DNA of 64,000 nt, from contig JANYHT010000016.1 in the NCBI GenBank assembly GCA_025358925.1, positions 62,001 through 126,000 of the forward strand, given 5' to 3'. The position numbers were made by a program, and so were the translations under genes. Shown piece after piece: positions 21,264-51,452 of this stretch. Under the pieces are notes generated by a model. It was not told the DNA's origin and made no database searches. It saw nothing but the letters and a program-made list of their open reading frames with translations. This DNA comes from Gemmatimonadaceae bacterium. Lineage in GTDB: Bacteria; Gemmatimonadota; Gemmatimonadetes; Gemmatimonadales; Gemmatimonadaceae. Numbering within the stretch: position 1 is the first letter of the stretch; the number at the start of each line of letters is the position of its first letter.

Positions 21264-22088
21264 TTACTTCAGTGAAATGGGCTTGGCACCGTGCACATCA
21301 ATGCGCGCCATTCGACGCAGGTGCACCGAATCGGCAGCACCAACGAACGCGGCGTTGCCTTCGACACTCTCGAGCGCACGCTTCAGTTGCGTCAATCCGC
21401 CGCAGAGGTAGCGATTGCAGATGTTGGATCGCATGGCGCGCGGAAGCGCACACCCAGCGGTGGTGTGGTACACGCACGAGCCGCGATAATGGCGCGTGGG
21501 CAAATACGCCGCGTACGAGGCGAGAAGCGCGCCTTCGTTGGCCTCGGGATGCTGTTCGCGCACACGTGTGAGACTATCTGCTCGCAAAAATGCGTGATCT
21601 CCACCTGCGGTACAACATTCGCCGCGACACGTACCGCAACTCAGTCCGAGAATCGTCGCGGCGTCTGCGCGATCGCTCGGCGGCGGATCCATAGCGGCAA
21701 TGCTTTGCGCGGTCATCGCTGCGGCGTCGGACGTGGGCACTGTCGAAAAGACCGCTCGCAGACGCTCGGCCAATCGCGAGAGAAAAATTCGACGTGTGGC
21801 AGCGGGCAGCCGTGTAGTCTCGCGCGTGTTCGCCGGAATCACTCCGATAACGTCAACAGCACCCTCGGACGTCGCAGATGGCGACTGCGTGATCGCGGTC
21901 TGCGCTATCGCTTCGACCTGTTCGCGAATGCGTGCGTTGCGTTCTCGTTGTGCCGCAATGGGATGGTGCCCAAGCGCACGACGTTGCTCGACTGCCCTTG
22001 CTCCGTGTGGCCGCGCTGATGACATGGGTCGAAACTGCGCGGGTGCGACGTCACTGGGCAAGTGGGCATCAGCAGCGCCAGTTGCCAT
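21264..22088 (-). CDS. cysteine-rich protein with CxxCxxxCC cluster (YkgJ-like metal-binding type)
   Basis: 274 residues. The N-terminal half is Ala/Arg-rich without a recognisable fold and without a signal peptide. The C-terminal half carries CGTCRGECC (Cys151, 154, 158, 159) and single Cys at 205, 213, 224 and 229. This spacing resembles the YkgJ / UPF0153 group, small proteins thought to bind zinc or an iron-sulfur cluster. It starts 12 bases after the stop of the CzcA-like pump gene, so it is the last gene of the efflux unit and may be linked to metal handling (inference). It converges with the photolyase gene. An alternative is a stand-alone redox or oxygenase-maturation protein. Confidence 0.72.
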   Translation of the reverse strand: MATGAADAHLPSDVAPAQFRPMSSARPHGARAVEQRRALGHHPIAAQRERNARIREQVEAIAQTAITQSPSATSEGAVDVIGVIPANTRETTRLPAATRRIFLSRLAERLRAVFSTVPTSDAAAMTAQSIAAMDPPPSDRADAATILGLSCGTCRGECCTAGGDHAFLRADSLTRVREQHPEANEGALLASYAAYLPTRHYRGSCVYHTTAGCALPRAMRSNICNRYLCGGLTQLKRALESVEGNAAFVGAADSVHLRRMARIDVHGAKPISLK

Positions 22089-22100
22089 TCATCGTATGAG

Positions 22101-25100
22101 TCAGACTTCTAAATGATCGCCGGGTCGCGCCACCATCTCGTACAGCACTGGCATGAGAAACACGCTGATGAGCAAACGTGAGAAGAGTCCGCCGATGATC
22201 ACGAGCGCAAATGGTCGTTGTGAGTCGGTGCCGACGCCGGTCGCGATCGCGGCCGGGAGCAAGCCAAACGCCGCGACAAGCGCCGTCATCATGATTGGCC
22301 GTAAACGCAGTAGCGCGGCTTCGCGTGTCGCGCCCGCTATGGGCATTCCGTTTAATCGCAGCTCGTTTGCATAGGAGATATACACAACGGCGGTTTGCAC
22401 CGACACGCCAAAGAGTGCGAGAAATCCGATGCCGGATGACACGGAGAAATGCGTGCCGGTGAGCACGAGCGCTAGCATGCCACCGATGGGCCCCGAGAGC
22501 ACCACACCGATGAGCGTAATCACCGGAAACTTGAAGTTGTGGTACAGGAAGAAGAGGAGGAGAAAGATCAGCGCCACGGTGATCGGCAGCACCACCTGCA
22601 GCTGGGTGCGCGACGCGGTGTATTCCTCATATTCACCTCCCCATGCGGCGCGATACCCGGAAGGCATGGTGATTGTGTTCGCCACCTGCGCTTGTGCTTC
22701 TTGCACGGCGCCCGCAAGGTCGCGGCCTTCGACCGAATACTGAATACCGATATACCGACTGCTGTTCTGCCGATAAATAAACGACGCGCCGTTACTGATT
22801 TGCAACGTCGCCACTTCGCGCAACGGCACCTGACTGCCAGACGGAGTGGCCACGAGAATATTGCCAATCTGCTCAGGCGATTGTCGGAATTGCGGCTGCA
22901 GCCGAACCACCAGATCGAATGTTTGTTCTCCCTGTACAACCTGTGTGGCAGCGCTCCCGCCCACAGCCGCTTCGATGAGGCCATTGATCGTGGCCGCGCT
23001 GAGACCGTAGCGTGCCATTCGCGCCCGATCCATTTGTATCGTCAGTGCCGGTTGACCAAGTTCTTGCACAAGCGTCACATGCGTGATGCCACGGACGCGT
23101 TCCAGCACATGCTTCAGCTCAAGTCCTTTCGCCTGCAGCACGCTTAAATCCGCGCCAAATACTTTGACGTCGAGCGCGCTCTTGAGCCCAGTCTCAGCTT
23201 CGTCAACGGCGTCTTCGGCCGGTTGCGTGAAGTTGAACTGAATGCCAGGAAAGACTTTCAACTTTTCATTCACCCGTTCGGTGAGCGCCGCCTTCGTATG
23301 ATACGTGCCGGTCCACTCGTCGTAGGGTTTGAGCCCGACATAGAATTCGGCATTGAAGAATCCCGTTGGGTCGGTGCCAGCATCGTCTCGTCCGTGCTCC
23401 GATGCAACGGTAGTCACTTCGGGAAACGACGCAAGAATCTTTCGCACTTCCGGTACAATCTTGGACGACTCTTCAAACGAAATTGTGTACGGCATGGTTG
23501 CGCGTACCCACATCGCACCTTCGTCAAGCTTCGGCATAAACTCGCCGCCAACACGAAAGGCCAGTACGAGCGACGCCGCAAAGAGCACGACGCTTGCGCC
23601 TACTACCGTCGTACGATGCGCCAGGCTCCAGTCGAGCAGTGACTCATAGCGATCCTTGATCCACTCGAACGCCACGTTACGCCGCTCGCGTACGCCACCG
23701 CGCATGAACCAAGTGCACAGCACTGGCACCACAGTCAACGTGAGTAACAGTGCGCCAACGAGGGCAAAGATTGTGGTGTCAGCCATTGGTGAAAACAGTT
23801 TGCCTGAAGGGCCGTTCAGCACGTAGATGGGCAGAAACCCTGCAATAATCACCGCGGTCGCATAGACAATCGGTCGATCCACTTCCGCTGCTGCAGACGT
23901 GATGACTTCGCGCAACGAGTAGCTCGTCCCGTGTCGCTGCGCGAGCTGTCGATGAATATTCTCGACCATCACGACGGCGCCATCAACCAAAATACCAAAA
24001 TCAATCGCGCCAATTGATAGCAGGTTGGCCGGAATATGCCGCAAATCCAGACAGATGAACGCGAAGCACAACGCAAGCGGAATTGTGAGGGCGACAATCA
24101 GCCCGGATCGAAGATCCAACAGAAAAAACACCAACACCACGATCACCAGTACGATACCACGTACCAGATTGTCCTCAACCGTGCGCGTGGTCAATGCAAT
24201 CAGATCGCGCCGATTGTAAAACGTGTGAATTTTCACGTCCTTCGGCAACACGTGCTCGTTTAAGTCACGTGTCGTCGCCTCCACCTTTTCCAGCACAACC
24301 TGCGCCTGTTCGCCCGTGCGAAGTAGAATGATGCCCTCTACGGCATCATTCCGGTCATTGAATCCAAACTGACCGAGTCGCGGTGCCTGTCCAATTTCTA
24401 CGCGACCGACATCCTTCACCAAAATTGGCGTGCCGTTTTTCGTCGCGAGCACGACGTTGCCAATGTCCGCCAACGTGTTCACTCGGGCTAAGCCACGCAC
24501 GTAATAGAACTGCCCGCCTTCGCTGTAAAATCCGCCGCCTGCGTTGTTGTTATTCGCACTCAGCGCGGTGGTTACATCCGAAACGGCAAGTCCAGCGCCA
24601 GACAATTTGCTGGGATCCAACAACACCTGATACTCCATTGTCTCGCCGCCAAGTCCGCCCAAATCCGCGACGCCAGGCACCGCTTTATACGCCTTCGACA
24701 GCACCCAATTATTTATAATTTTCAGCTCCATCGCCGACCGATCGGAACTTTCCAGGACGTAACGGTAGACAAGCCCGGATGGTGAAAACAGCGGTTCGAT
24801 TCCGGCCGATACGCCGGTCGGCACGGTGACCCCAGGCAAATGCTCAAATGCGCGTTGCCGCGCAAAATACGGATCCGTGCCATCCTGAAACGTGAGCACG
24901 ACATGCGAAAGTCCGTACAGCGACACTGAGCGCACCACCTTTACCCGCTCAATGCCATTCATCTCGCGTTCAATCGGCAGTGTGACTAATCGTTCCACCT
25001 CCTCCGCCGCGTGACCAGGCCACGCTGTTGTGATCGCGACAAGGGGCGGCGAGAGGTCGGGATAGGCGTCAACTGGTAAGCGTAGAAACGACCACACGCC

Positions 25101-25244
25101 AACACCGATCAGCGTCAGCGCAAAAATCGCCACAAGAAACGGTTGGTTCAGCGCCGCACGCACCACGCGGTTCGCAACTGACGGTGCTCCAGCATGCGTA
25201 TTTGTTTCGCCGCTTTGCGGCGCCGCCGACGTAGGATCGCTCAT
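22101..25244 (-). CDS. heavy-metal RND efflux pump subunit, CzcA/CusA type
   Basis: 1047 residues with the RND plan: one N-terminal helix (PFLVAIFALTLIGVGVWSFL), a large periplasmic loop, six helices, a second loop and five helices. TM4 reads GAIDFGILVDGAVVMVENI, carrying the DFG..D..E signature of the heavy-metal (HME) branch rather than the DD motif of drug pumps. The protein takes up protons to drive export of divalent or monovalent metals through a tripartite channel. Start and stop overlap its neighbours by 4 bases (25241-25244), confirming an operon with the adaptor and outer-membrane genes. Which metal is moved (Co/Zn/Cd or Cu/Ag) cannot be decided here; the small His/Cys protein upstream agrees with a metal. 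Confidence 0.93.
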   Translation of the reverse strand: MSDPTSAAPQSGETNTHAGAPSVANRVVRAALNQPFLVAIFALTLIGVGVWSFLRLPVDAYPDLSPPLVAITTAWPGHAAEEVERLVTLPIEREMNGIERVKVVRSVSLYGLSHVVLTFQDGTDPYFARQRAFEHLPGVTVPTGVSAGIEPLFSPSGLVYRYVLESSDRSAMELKIINNWVLSKAYKAVPGVADLGGLGGETMEYQVLLDPSKLSGAGLAVSDVTTALSANNNNAGGGFYSEGGQFYYVRGLARVNTLADIGNVVLATKNGTPILVKDVGRVEIGQAPRLGQFGFNDRNDAVEGIILLRTGEQAQVVLEKVEATTRDLNEHVLPKDVKIHTFYNRRDLIALTTRTVEDNLVRGIVLVIVVLVFFLLDLRSGLIVALTIPLALCFAFICLDLRHIPANLLSIGAIDFGILVDGAVVMVENIHRQLAQRHGTSYSLREVITSAAAEVDRPIVYATAVIIAGFLPIYVLNGPSGKLFSPMADTTIFALVGALLLTLTVVPVLCTWFMRGGVRERRNVAFEWIKDRYESLLDWSLAHRTTVVGASVVLFAASLVLAFRVGGEFMPKLDEGAMWVRATMPYTISFEESSKIVPEVRKILASFPEVTTVASEHGRDDAGTDPTGFFNAEFYVGLKPYDEWTGTYHTKAALTERVNEKLKVFPGIQFNFTQPAEDAVDEAETGLKSALDVKVFGADLSVLQAKGLELKHVLERVRGITHVTLVQELGQPALTIQMDRARMARYGLSAATINGLIEAAVGGSAATQVVQGEQTFDLVVRLQPQFRQSPEQIGNILVATPSGSQVPLREVATLQISNGASFIYRQNSSRYIGIQYSVEGRDLAGAVQEAQAQVANTITMPSGYRAAWGGEYEEYTASRTQLQVVLPITVALIFLLLFFLYHNFKFPVITLIGVVLSGPIGGMLALVLTGTHFSVSSGIGFLALFGVSVQTAVVYISYANELRLNGMPIAGATREAALLRLRPIMMTALVAAFGLLPAAIATGVGTDSQRPFALVIIGGLFSRLLISVFLMPVLYEMVARPGDHLEV

Positions 25245-26428
25245 TGATGCTCCGCGAATTGCACGAAGAGCGCGCCGTTCGCCAAGACGTGCTCGCCGGT
25301 CTTCAACCCGTCGACTATCTCATAGCCCGTTTCCACCGCCGCACCCAACGTGACATGGCGCCGAGAGAATGTGCGGTCAGTATTCGCGATGAAAACGAAT
25401 GGCAAGTTGTCATCATCTCGCAGCACGGATGTCGCGGGCACGATGAGTCCCATGCGTTCTCGAATCGCATGAAAACGAACACGGACGAACATGTCGCGCT
25501 TGAGAAACTGCTGTGTATTCGGAACGAGGATGCGCACGGTCGTCGCGCGTGTCCCCGGATCGACAATCGATGCCACGAAATCAACGCGCCCCGCGATCGG
25601 AAATGGTGACACGTCGGTGAGGATGTCCACCAGTTCGCCCGCGCGCACCGTGCCGACATCGCTGCCGTAAACGCTGGCCATTACCCACATCGTCGACAAG
25701 TCCGCGATACTATACGCCAGTGTTGTTCCAGCTTGCAGCAACTGTCCTGGGTTAATCAACTTCTCCACAACCGTGCCCGGAATCGGCGCGCGAATCGCGC
25801 CTTCCAGTTGCGGCACGAGTTTGCCGTCATGTATCGCGGAAATGATGGTCTCGTCGATACCGATAGATCGCAACTGCTGCGCCGCGGCATCACGGTCAGC
25901 GAGGGCCGAGGCTGCATCCGTGCGCGCTTGGTCAAGGTCACTGCGCGCGAGCGCGTCGTTCGCGAACAGTTGCTCGTCGCGATCAAGAATGCGTTTAGCA
26001 TTTCGCGCTGCCCCTTCGGCTTTGCGGTAGCCCGCCACCGCAACGGCAAAATCTGGTGATGACACCGTCGCTAACGTTTGTCCGGCGGTGACGTGTGTGC
26101 CGAGCAATGCAACGAGCCGTACCACTGGACCAGAAATTGGCGAAATCACCTGCGTGCTGCGATCACCATTAAAGGCTACCGTTCCCGTTGCTTCAACGGT
26201 CGGTCGAAACGACGTGAGCGCCATCGTCACGATTTGCAGTCGTGCGCGCTGCGCGTCGGTAACGCGGAATCCGCTTGCTGCTGTGGCTGCGGAGACTGGC
26301 ACACTCGGTGCGGACTTCGAGCGATCGGTCGAACCTGAGGACTTGTCACCGCAGGCTGTCAATGCGCCGATGCTCAGGATCATTACAACGCGAGAGCGCG
26401 CCACGCGAACAACGACCGTCTTCTTCAC
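25241..26428 (-). CDS. periplasmic adaptor lipoprotein of the metal RND pump, CzcB/CusB type
   Basis: 395 residues. Lipoprotein signal ending LTACGDKS (Cys about residue 27) anchors it to a membrane. The barrel-sandwich/biotinyl-lipoyl half-motifs SGPVVRLVALLGTHVTAGQTL and GTVVEKLINPGQLLQAGTTL flank an alpha-hairpin (residues about 130-190, NAKRILDRDEQLFANDALAR). A beta-barrel domain follows (ADLSTMWVMASVYGSDVGTV). The fold is that of membrane fusion proteins joining the RND pump with the TolC-like channel. It overlaps both neighbours by 4 bases. No extra His/Met metal-binding N-terminal extension is seen, unlike some CusB proteins. Confidence 0.92.
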   Translation of the reverse strand: MKKTVVVRVARSRVVMILSIGALTACGDKSSGSTDRSKSAPSVPVSAATAASGFRVTDAQRARLQIVTMALTSFRPTVEATGTVAFNGDRSTQVISPISGPVVRLVALLGTHVTAGQTLATVSSPDFAVAVAGYRKAEGAARNAKRILDRDEQLFANDALARSDLDQARTDAASALADRDAAAQQLRSIGIDETIISAIHDGKLVPQLEGAIRAPIPGTVVEKLINPGQLLQAGTTLAYSIADLSTMWVMASVYGSDVGTVRAGELVDILTDVSPFPIAGRVDFVASIVDPGTRATTVRILVPNTQQFLKRDMFVRVRFHAIRERMGLIVPATSVLRDDDNLPFVFIANTDRTFSRRHVTLGAAVETGYEIVDGLKTGEHVLANGALFVQFAEHQ

Positions 26429-27726
26429 GGAATGCTCCGAGCAGAAAGAGTAGAGAGCGACGCGCCAGCAGCGCGCTCGAGATCTGAGCGAGACGAATTG
26501 GCCGCCGCGAGCGCGGTGGCATATTGGCTTTGTGCACTGAGCAGCGTGCGACGCGCATCCAAGACTTCGAGTGCCGAAAGACCACCTAAGCCGTAGCTCA
26601 CCGATGAGACCCGATAGGCTTCACGCGCTGCCGGCAGCAACGCGTCACGCAGAAACACCGCTTGGCGTAGTGCGGCATCAGCCGTTGCGTACGCGGCGCG
26701 CACGTCCTGCGCGACAGCGGCGCGCGCATCACGAAAGGTCGCCGCCAACTCGAGCTCGCGATGATGCGTTTCTGCAAAGTCGCCGCGCGTGTGCTGCCAC
26801 AAAAATACGGGAATTGGCATCGCGATCCCGACCGTAAAGACGATGCCAGACGTCGCAGCGAGATCGCGGCCCGCTCCGACCGTGAGGTCCGGCAGAATGG
26901 CGTTTTCGCGAACCAAAGCGCTGGTGGCCTTCGCGCCTCGCTGCTGCGCTTCGATGGTGCGTAACTCGGGACGCGTGCGAAGCGCAGCCGCTTCAATGGC
27001 GTCCAGTGCCGGAAGCTGCGTCGGAACATCGAGGGAATCGCTAGCAACGAGCGCCGCGCCCAACAGGCGACCGAGTGCGCGATTCAGAGCCGCATCAGCG
27101 TTGGCAATATCACGAGCGCTCGCAATCAGGTCGTTCGCTGCTTGGGCGACATCGACCTGTGCTTTGATGACGTCAAGGCGCGGTACGGATCCCGCATTAA
27201 AGCGAGCCTCGGTACGCTTCAAAAACTCCGTCGCGAATTCGCGTGATTGCAACAGGTCGCGTTGGTGCAGCCGCACCACCAATACTGAATCGTACAATCG
27301 ACCGGTTTGCGAAGCCACCTGTTGTTGCAACAACAGCAACGCCGATTCCGACGCTTCGATGTTTGCATTACCCACGCGATTACGTAGCCGCAGTTTATCG
27401 GGGAACGGAATGCCGCCATTCAACGCGATCGGGCGTTGCGGCGCTCCGCTCAATCGTCGAACAGTCGTGAGTGAATCGAGCGACGTCGTGAGCACGGGAT
27501 CGGCAATCGCGATGCCCTGCACGCGCTGCGCTCGCACTTGCAGCGTTTGCTCGCGCGCAATGTCGATTTGCGGATTCGCGCGAACGGCGAGCGCGATCGC
27601 TTGTTGTCGGGTGAGGTAGAGCGTATCGCCGACAGCCAATCGTGCCGGTCGTTGTTGCGCAGACGACGCGCCGCTAAGAGACAGTAGTCCCAGCATCAGC
27701 GCGAGCATCGTGACGGATGATCGCAT
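26425..27726 (-). CDS. outer-membrane efflux channel, TolC/CzcC type
   Basis: 433 residues with a signal peptide to about residue 23 (MLALMLGLLSLSGASSAQQ). Two OEP repeats are visible: the first opens LYLTRQQAIALAVRANPQID and the second LEAAALRTRPELRTIEAQ-like at about 245, each followed by long coiled helices; the end is SLSTLSARS-type. The ribosome site GAGG stands 9 bases before ATG 27726. As the first gene of the pump triple it would receive regulation from the hairpin region at 27784-27823. It forms the exit duct for the RND complex. The assignment as CzcC-like rather than TolC is by operon position. Confidence 0.9.
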   Translation of the reverse strand: MRSSVTMLALMLGLLSLSGASSAQQRPARLAVGDTLYLTRQQAIALAVRANPQIDIAREQTLQVRAQRVQGIAIADPVLTTSLDSLTTVRRLSGAPQRPIALNGGIPFPDKLRLRNRVGNANIEASESALLLLQQQVASQTGRLYDSVLVVRLHQRDLLQSREFATEFLKRTEARFNAGSVPRLDVIKAQVDVAQAANDLIASARDIANADAALNRALGRLLGAALVASDSLDVPTQLPALDAIEAAALRTRPELRTIEAQQRGAKATSALVRENAILPDLTVGAGRDLAATSGIVFTVGIAMPIPVFLWQHTRGDFAETHHRELELAATFRDARAAVAQDVRAAYATADAALRQAVFLRDALLPAAREAYRVSSVSYGLGGLSALEVLDARRTLLSAQSQYATALAAANSSRSDLERAAGASLSTLSARSIP

Positions 27727-27783
27727 AGCCAGCCTCAGTTGTGTCTGATGTCAGCGGCACGCGAGTGCGCACGCGACAGAGTA

Positions 27784-27823
27784 GCAACCTCCTCGATGAG
27801 GTTGCGCTGAATCAGCGCAACCT
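27784..27823. other. mutually exclusive inverted repeats before the metal efflux genes
   Basis: AGGTTGCGCTGA (27799-27810) and TCAGCGCAACCT (27812-27823) form a perfect 12-base dyad with a one-base centre. A third element GCAACCTC (27784-27791) pairs with GAGGTTGC (27798-27805) instead. In a minus-strand transcript the middle element could join either flank, as in attenuators. It overlaps the stop of the small gene 27812-28162 and precedes the channel gene by 58 bases. A DNA operator for a dimeric regulator is the alternative. Confidence 0.7.
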
Positions 27824-28162
27824 GGGTGGTGCTCGACTGGTGTTCGACGTGGGTGGATCACGCGCCGTCACGACGCCGACAAAAGTAATTGTCATTTGCC
27901 GCGGTGCGGCGGCCAAGGCGGGCGTAACATGCGTCGCGTTTACCGAGGCTTGCAGCGACCGCACCGAGCAGACGGCGCATGTGCTTTCATTGTGCATGCG
28001 CGCATGTCGCGTTCCGCGCTGCTCGGCGTGAATCACTGCCTGCCGACCATCGCGCTCCGCGAGCGGCGCGACTGCGACACCTACCTGAACGAGCAACATG
28101 AGCAACGCCGTACTCCGGCGTTGCCAATGCGCTACGCGACGCAGGAGGCGGTGCAAAGTCAT
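27812..28162 (-). CDS. small exported His/Cys-containing protein upstream of metal efflux genes
   Basis: 116 residues from ATG 28162. A hydrophobic stretch (STALLMLLVQVGVAVAPLAE, residues about 17-36) looks like a signal anchor. The middle has clustered ligands: His residues around 44-56 and HNESTCAVCSVRSLQA with CxxC at about 62-65. This resembles DUF2946-type small proteins that accompany metal pumps and may bind copper or another metal outside the cytoplasm. The tail is Pro/Arg-rich. It lies between the aldo/keto reductase (stop 28197, 34 bases upstream) and the pump channel gene on the same strand. Family is not certain and the C-terminal part has an unusual composition. Confidence 0.55.
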   Translation of the reverse strand: MTLHRLLRRVAHWQRRSTALLMLLVQVGVAVAPLAERDGRQAVIHAEQRGTRHARMHNESTCAVCSVRSLQASVNATHVTPALAAAPRQMTITFVGVVTARDPPTSNTSRAPPRLR

Positions 28163-50431: not shown

Positions 50432-51414
<983 letters not shown>

Positions 51415-51452
51415 GTGCAGGGGGCACCGGTTAACCTTCAGTTTTTTCGTCG

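Follow-up and report, generated by a model that had tools for sequence, protein, structure and literature searches.

The window (the whole 64,000-nt stretch of DNA analyzed here) contains a small gene at the head of a CzcC–CzcB–CzcA-type operon, and the junction between this gene and the following channel gene is quite probably the point at which a CutF/CruR-type arrest-peptide leader exerts control, coupled to translation as in CutF-cutO. A ribosome that pauses at the end of the leader probably turns on the pump, a principle with precedents in two copper-controlled systems of other bacteria. The leader, its motifs, their spacing and a covarying helix, which we designate helix C and which joins the end of the leader to the start of the channel gene, can all be read from the sequence.

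All genes concerned lie on the minus strand (Table 1). The channel gene follows 85 nt downstream of the leader and is itself followed by the adaptor and pump genes. The pump protein contains DFGILVDGAVVMVEN, which fits DFGX3DGAX3VEN, the signature in TMH IV of HME1 and HME2 pumps for Zn, Co, Cd and Ni (PMC3637150). Membership of the CusA/CzcA family together with this motif places the pump in HME1/HME2 and suggests a divalent metal as its substrate; because the pump carries this signature, copper should not be assumed. Twelve bases after the pump stop lies a 274-aa gene (21264-22088, minus strand) with a Cys cluster (CGTCRGECC..., YkgJ-like by eye), which may be part of the operon. The only close relative with the operon is a sister species, a Gemmatimonadaceae MAG (G018) with a 92% identical channel; a contig search with the window protein alone gave a single match, in the sister MAG Gemmatimonadaceae bacterium JANYFO010000027.1.

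Table 1. Features of the leader/channel junction and the operon (window coordinates)
Feature	Position	Strand	Basis or remark
Small leader gene, 116 aa	27812..28162	minus	ORF; start ATG 28162, stop TGA 27814-27812
CAVC, putative metal-binding CxxC motif	27968..27979	minus	44 residues before RAPP
RAPP arrest motif codons CGA GCA CCA CCC	27824..27835	minus	Sequence; Pro codons 27829-27824
Helix C, 5′ arm (predicted)	27806..27829	minus	Proline codons, three tail codons, stop codon, following bases
Helix C, 3′ arm (predicted)	27729..27751	minus	Just upstream of channel start, SD included
Hairpin A	27823-27799	minus	AGGTTGCGCTGA/TCAGCGCAACCT, 12 bp, 1-nt loop; ~10-11 bp in practice
Hairpin B	27805-27784	minus	GCAACCTC/GAGGTTGC, 8 bp, 6-nt loop
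Likely Shine-Dalgarno (SD) GAGG of channel gene	27734..27737	minus	Sequence; paired in both predicted folds
Outer-membrane channel gene (OEP/TolC, CzcC-like)	26425..27726	minus	Pfam OEP 7.7e-32
Periplasmic adaptor gene (HlyD_D23, CzcB/CusB-like)	25241..26428	minus	Pfam 9.5e-43; TIGR00999 145.9 bits, below cut-off
CusA/CzcA-family heavy-metal RND pump	22101..25244	minus	TIGR00914 887 bits, above cut-off

The leader protein begins with a basic and hydrophobic stretch that looks signal-like by eye (MTLHRLLRRVAHWQRRSTALLMLLVQVGVAVAPLA) and ends in a ruler of CAVC, 44 residues, RAPP, RLR and the stop, which agrees with the motifs and spacing that define CruR. With its PP 4-5 residues from the end, it also lies within the size limits given for CutF-like proteins (<150 aa, PP within the last 15 residues); as further expected of such proteins, a gene follows on the same strand within 1000 nt, and a stem-loop is predicted over the next SD. 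Homologs occur in 99 of the 288 genomes of the order, and at 58 loci they stand directly before a related channel gene. The window leader shares the commonest geometry: 41 of 56 homologs have 44 residues between CxxC and RAPP, and 43 of 56 end exactly three residues after RAPP. Nine aligned leaders share one Gln, one His, both Cys and RAPP without exception. Pfam DUF2946 (PF11162) scores 15 bits (E=0.044) against the window leader and does not reach the gathering cut-off of 23.7, and an NCBIfam search gave no match for this protein. Some homologous leaders of the order exceed the DUF2946 cut-off, such as one (G240) with 24.6 bits that is linked to the window leader at E 2.9e-7. We regard the window leader as a divergent CutF/CruR-like (DUF2946-like), putatively exported protein on the basis of motif geometry, gene context and linked homologs, and not of the Pfam score. 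One leader before a channel gene (L012) keeps RAPP intact but has no CxxC, and may be a natural case in which the sensor half was lost. RAPP leaders are also present in other families of the class (L132, L133, L136, L143, L146, L151, L153, L158), some with a longer tail after RAPP and TAG or TAA stops.

Helix C was assessed with a swap test, in which 25 bases around the leader stop are paired with the bases before the channel start, either from the same locus or swapped between loci, after reducing clusters that are >80% identical to one member. Over 41 loci and with a wider 3′ arm, own pairs reach -19.7 kcal/mol versus -15.6 for swapped pairs, a value that none of 20000 permutations attains. 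For 40 non-redundant operons with the 3′ arm set to -30..-5, the energies are -17.0 and -12.0 kcal/mol (z -10). Any kinship left among the loci counts against this signal, because the arm of a close relative pairs too. The signal is lost when the 5′ arm is slid upstream or the 3′ arm is slid past the ATG. We can rule out a general property of gene junctions, as the effect is no more than -0.25 kcal/mol (z -0.6) at 61 ordinary same-strand junctions with similar gaps, drawn from the window and the genomes of the test set. An independent set of 16 loci, where the leader precedes a BBP2-like porin gene, gives z -3.9 and -4.8.

Alignment of ten sequences from a clade with short gaps points in the same direction: 90.8% of cells are paired, against 39-53% with the partner shifted by one column, and 2 of 12 pairs show compensatory changes. 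The stop arm of the window pairs with its own 3′ arm at -23.9 kcal/mol, ranking first among 40 five-prime arms and being reached by 1 of 1000 shuffles, while the arm of the sister species ranks second of 40 (3 of 1000 shuffles). Of the SD, positions -8 and -7 take part in pairing in 31-32 of the 40 predicted duplexes. Helix C is, at the level of these predictions, a conserved, covarying RNA element of leader/channel junctions. The conserved pairing is this longer one, which joins the stop region to the SD and the bases upstream of it and was absent from the original prediction. Near-perfect versions are seen in one genus (L006, L056, L073, L085; also L046 and L055) as a CCCAGAGAAT/ATTCTCTGGG helix with the SD inside.

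The proline codons of RAPP form part of the 5′ arm, and their codon usage is biased. At 33 non-redundant loci RAPP is followed by a three-residue tail; CCT encodes the first proline in 19 of them, versus 15 of 260 (6%) other prolines of these leaders (Fisher p=2e-12), and CCC encodes the second in 21. CCUCCC is complementary to SD sequences. This tendency towards CCU-CCC leads us to propose that the putative RAPP stall site doubles as an anti-SD across leaders. Placing background codons at the real proline pair costs ~1.1 kcal/mol on average (z -4.3). The RAPP codons alone give no own-versus-swap signal with the SD (z 0), as the CC-rich codons common to all loci would lead one to expect; the prolines together with the first tail codon do (z -4.0), this codon being needed for the signal. 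Slow codons at a stall site may account for part of the CCT bias, and the covariation of the prolines plus first tail codon with the SD argues that pairing contributes too. The window itself has CCA-CCC and not CCU-CCC, and its own test of synonymous choice is not significant. Our survey of freely accessible journal papers found no report of an order-wide stop/SD helix in such leaders, nor of proline codons acting as anti-SD in them.

Besides helix C, the site contains two smaller hairpins, A and B. On the plus strand, GCAACCT (27784-27790), AGGTTGC (27799-27805) and GCAACCT (27817-27823) follow each other, so that the minus-strand transcript reads AGGTTGC-GCTGATTCAGC-GCAACCT-CATCGAGG-AGGTTGC. 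As the original prediction had it, the central element can pair with either neighbor, giving mutually exclusive stems of 12 bp (somewhat fewer in practice) and 8 bp at a site that overlaps the stop of the small gene and precedes the channel gene. Hairpin A, a near-perfect 25-bp palindrome, starts at the codon after RAPP and carries the leader TGA at its apex. Perfect stems of >=12 bp with a loop <=1 occur once in the 64-kb window and not at all in three shuffles, whereas stems of >=8 bp with a loop <=8 occur 29 times versus 15-27 times in shuffles. Hairpin A is thus unusual for a sequence of 64 kb, and hairpin B by itself is ordinary. In the sister species, B is identical at 22 of 22 bases and A is broken, reading AGTTTGAGCTGATTCGGCGCAACCT. 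None of the other homologous operons compared has the A/B pair, and B was not found in more distant relatives. Hairpin A therefore appears, from this comparison, to be a feature of the window genome that is lost in the sister species. No intrinsic terminator (a hairpin followed by a U run) is present at 27784-27823. An Rfam search of the window gave no known RNA family at the site and, elsewhere, only tRNA and SAM_alpha. The SAM_alpha riboswitch (51351-51422, minus strand; 44.5 bits vs a gathering score of 36) lies in a Gemmatimonadaceae-like genome, while the family is named for Alphaproteobacteria; a putative 308-aa ORF (51358-50432) begins right at the end of this element.

From these features we infer that the ribosome stalls, that the SD is then released, which metal is sensed and in which direction the system responds. 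The leader would encode an exported metal-sensing peptide, on which the ribosome is expected to stall at RAPP with the first proline in the P site and the second in the A site. RAPP is the stall site in RAPP-type leaders (PMC10951233), and toeprinting of CruR placed the stall with the RAPP prolines in the P and A sites (PMC12992588). On free mRNA, the proline codons, tail codons and stop would pair with the SD region of the channel gene, keeping channel translation low. The leading edge of a ribosome usually lies ~15 bases from the P-site codon, and a stalled ribosome would thus reach the stop codon and bury the greater part of the 5′ arms of helix C and hairpin A. With the 5′ arm covered, the SD would become free and the channel gene translated, presumably carrying the adaptor and pump along through their overlapping genes. 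The stall would mean ON because the helix C lock holds the SD. Metal binding at the H/CxxC residues would probably prolong the stall, so that the pump is made with metal present; this direction is suggested by CutF, where metal does so (PMC9973294), and by the logic of an efflux pump.

With the footprint of a stalled ribosome masked at 40 loci, the predicted openness of the SD goes up from 0.37 to 0.48, whereas a control mask gives 0.37 (p=4e-5). For the window and its sister alone, the same mask does not open the SD (0.19 to 0.16 and 0.24 to 0.20, respectively), so that these models support SD release for the leader family and not for the window locus alone. Without a ribosome, hairpin A would offer the 5′ arm an alternative partner in the window genome: A excludes both B and C, while B nests inside C and is compatible with it. 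Forced folding of the window gives -54.9 kcal/mol for the A state and -52.6 for the B-plus-C state, with the SD paired in both; the predicted fold of the sister, which is without A, has B at 0.99 and C at about 0.6. Several findings speak against our preferred reading: besides the masking result for the window and its sister, the CCA-CCC codons and the sub-threshold Pfam score, the minimum of the free window RNA uses hairpin A and not B plus C, and the pump signature is divalent, whereas the characterized CutF/CruR leaders sense copper. A more speculative extension, which we consider possible but on balance doubtful, is that in this bacterial order the same six bases (CCU-CCC) encode the stall prolines, sit under the stalled ribosome and lock the next SD, the lock being the reader site, that the sensor serves a divalent-metal (Zn/Co/Cd/Ni) pump and not copper, and that the competing hairpin of the window sets a threshold.

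It is very probable that the pump is expressed in dependence on leader translation, through an arrest-peptide leader whose stop region is paired to the ribosome binding site of the channel gene. In this, the interpretation first given to the repeats stands; its specific three-part switch does not. Hairpins A and B are real and mutually exclusive in the window, but conservation of both pairings across relatives, the point on which that switch was to be judged, fails: A is broken in the only close relative, and the pair is absent from all other homologs. We therefore reject A/B as a conserved switch and hold it to be very improbable that it is the main regulatory element here. Even harder to credit is a DNA operator for a repressor. 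The palindrome would suit one, yet its place is within the operon, across a stop codon, and the sister does not keep it. The genome has a single copy of the 22-base dyad and only imperfect matches elsewhere, and the half-site of the palindrome is no commoner there than a reversed control (7 vs 8); the lack of a recurring dyad led us to reject this candidate as well.

Two further explanations retain the leader and assign it another role. Plain translational coupling, in which a terminating ribosome melts helix C and RAPP and metal have no regulatory role, or in which the peptide is a CzcI-like periplasmic modulator of the pump, seems unlikely to us, even though masking a terminating ribosome gives nearly the same SD opening as masking a stalled one (0.49 vs 0.48) and CzcI, a CutF-like protein without the PP motif, precedes czcCBA and quenches the pump (PMC10127602, PMC9973294). 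It leaves unaccounted for that RAPP, the 44-residue spacing and the three-residue tail are kept across the order, that RAPP is a demonstrated arrest motif (PMC10951233, PMC12992588), and that the same junction also stands before unrelated porin-like genes. Transcriptional control of the CruR type is, in our view, quite unlikely. Here, a stalled ribosome would block Rho, and metal would relieve the stall and let Rho end transcription before the channel gene, making helix C secondary. The same leader architecture does work in this way in Bordetella (PMC9426467), but the strong, position-specific covariation between stop region and SD points to translation, the excess of C over G in leader and junction is weak (+0.12 at most), and an efflux pump that metal switches off makes little physiological sense.

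Arrest-peptide control of the pump, as we propose it, has several relatives among known systems. CutF-cutO of Rhodobacter capsulatus likewise has a small, Sec-exported DUF2946-like leader, a Cys metal motif ~45 residues before a C-terminal proline motif, and a stem-loop that hides the next SD; OEP channel genes of RND pumps are the commonest neighbors of CutF-like genes (PMC9973294). CutF differs in having CxxxC and another proline motif, and in controlling a multicopper oxidase (PMC9973294), while the window leader has RAPP, a predicted stem that begins at the proline codons themselves, and a pump with a divalent-metal signature. CruR of Bordetella pertussis shares the order of CxxC, 45 residues, RAPP, three residues and stop, but its target is a TonB-dependent transporter, which it controls through Rho across a gap of 162 nt, and copper turns it off (PMC9426467); its RAPP is moreover encoded by frequent codons. 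SecM-secA and the RAPP-type monitors ApdA and ApdP also use an exported arrest peptide whose stalling opens an SD stem-loop, but they monitor protein export, control secretion genes and are without a metal-binding motif (PMC10951233, PMC10987492). CzcI of Cupriavidus metallidurans resembles the leader as a small exported protein encoded just before czcCBA; it lacks the C-terminal proline motif and is described as quenching the pump protein (PMC10127602). The main texts that we searched for Gemmatimonadota, PMC9973294 included, do not name the phylum.

Since the two studied leaders respond to copper in opposite ways, the connection between RNA and stall becomes the point of interest. The Gemmatimonadaceae-related set represents a large natural experiment, with dozens of junctions in which the peptide geometry is fixed and the covarying RNA lock changes fast, and exchanging arms between species would put the coupling step to a direct test. 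The set also brings to light leaders overlooked by present annotation (no NCBIfam match, a sub-threshold Pfam score) and adds porin-like genes as a second target class. At these loci, which include L038, L042, L046-L049, L053, L054, L057, L059, L069, L070 and others, a RAPP leader precedes an exported protein of 300-440 aa with a weak BBP2 (PF07642) match in place of the pump channel, and the same stop/SD pairing is predicted. The genus with the CCCAGAGAAT/ATTCTCTGGG helix has a very similar element before its channel gene and, in L046, before a porin-like gene; there, the control junction looks as if it had been copied whole.
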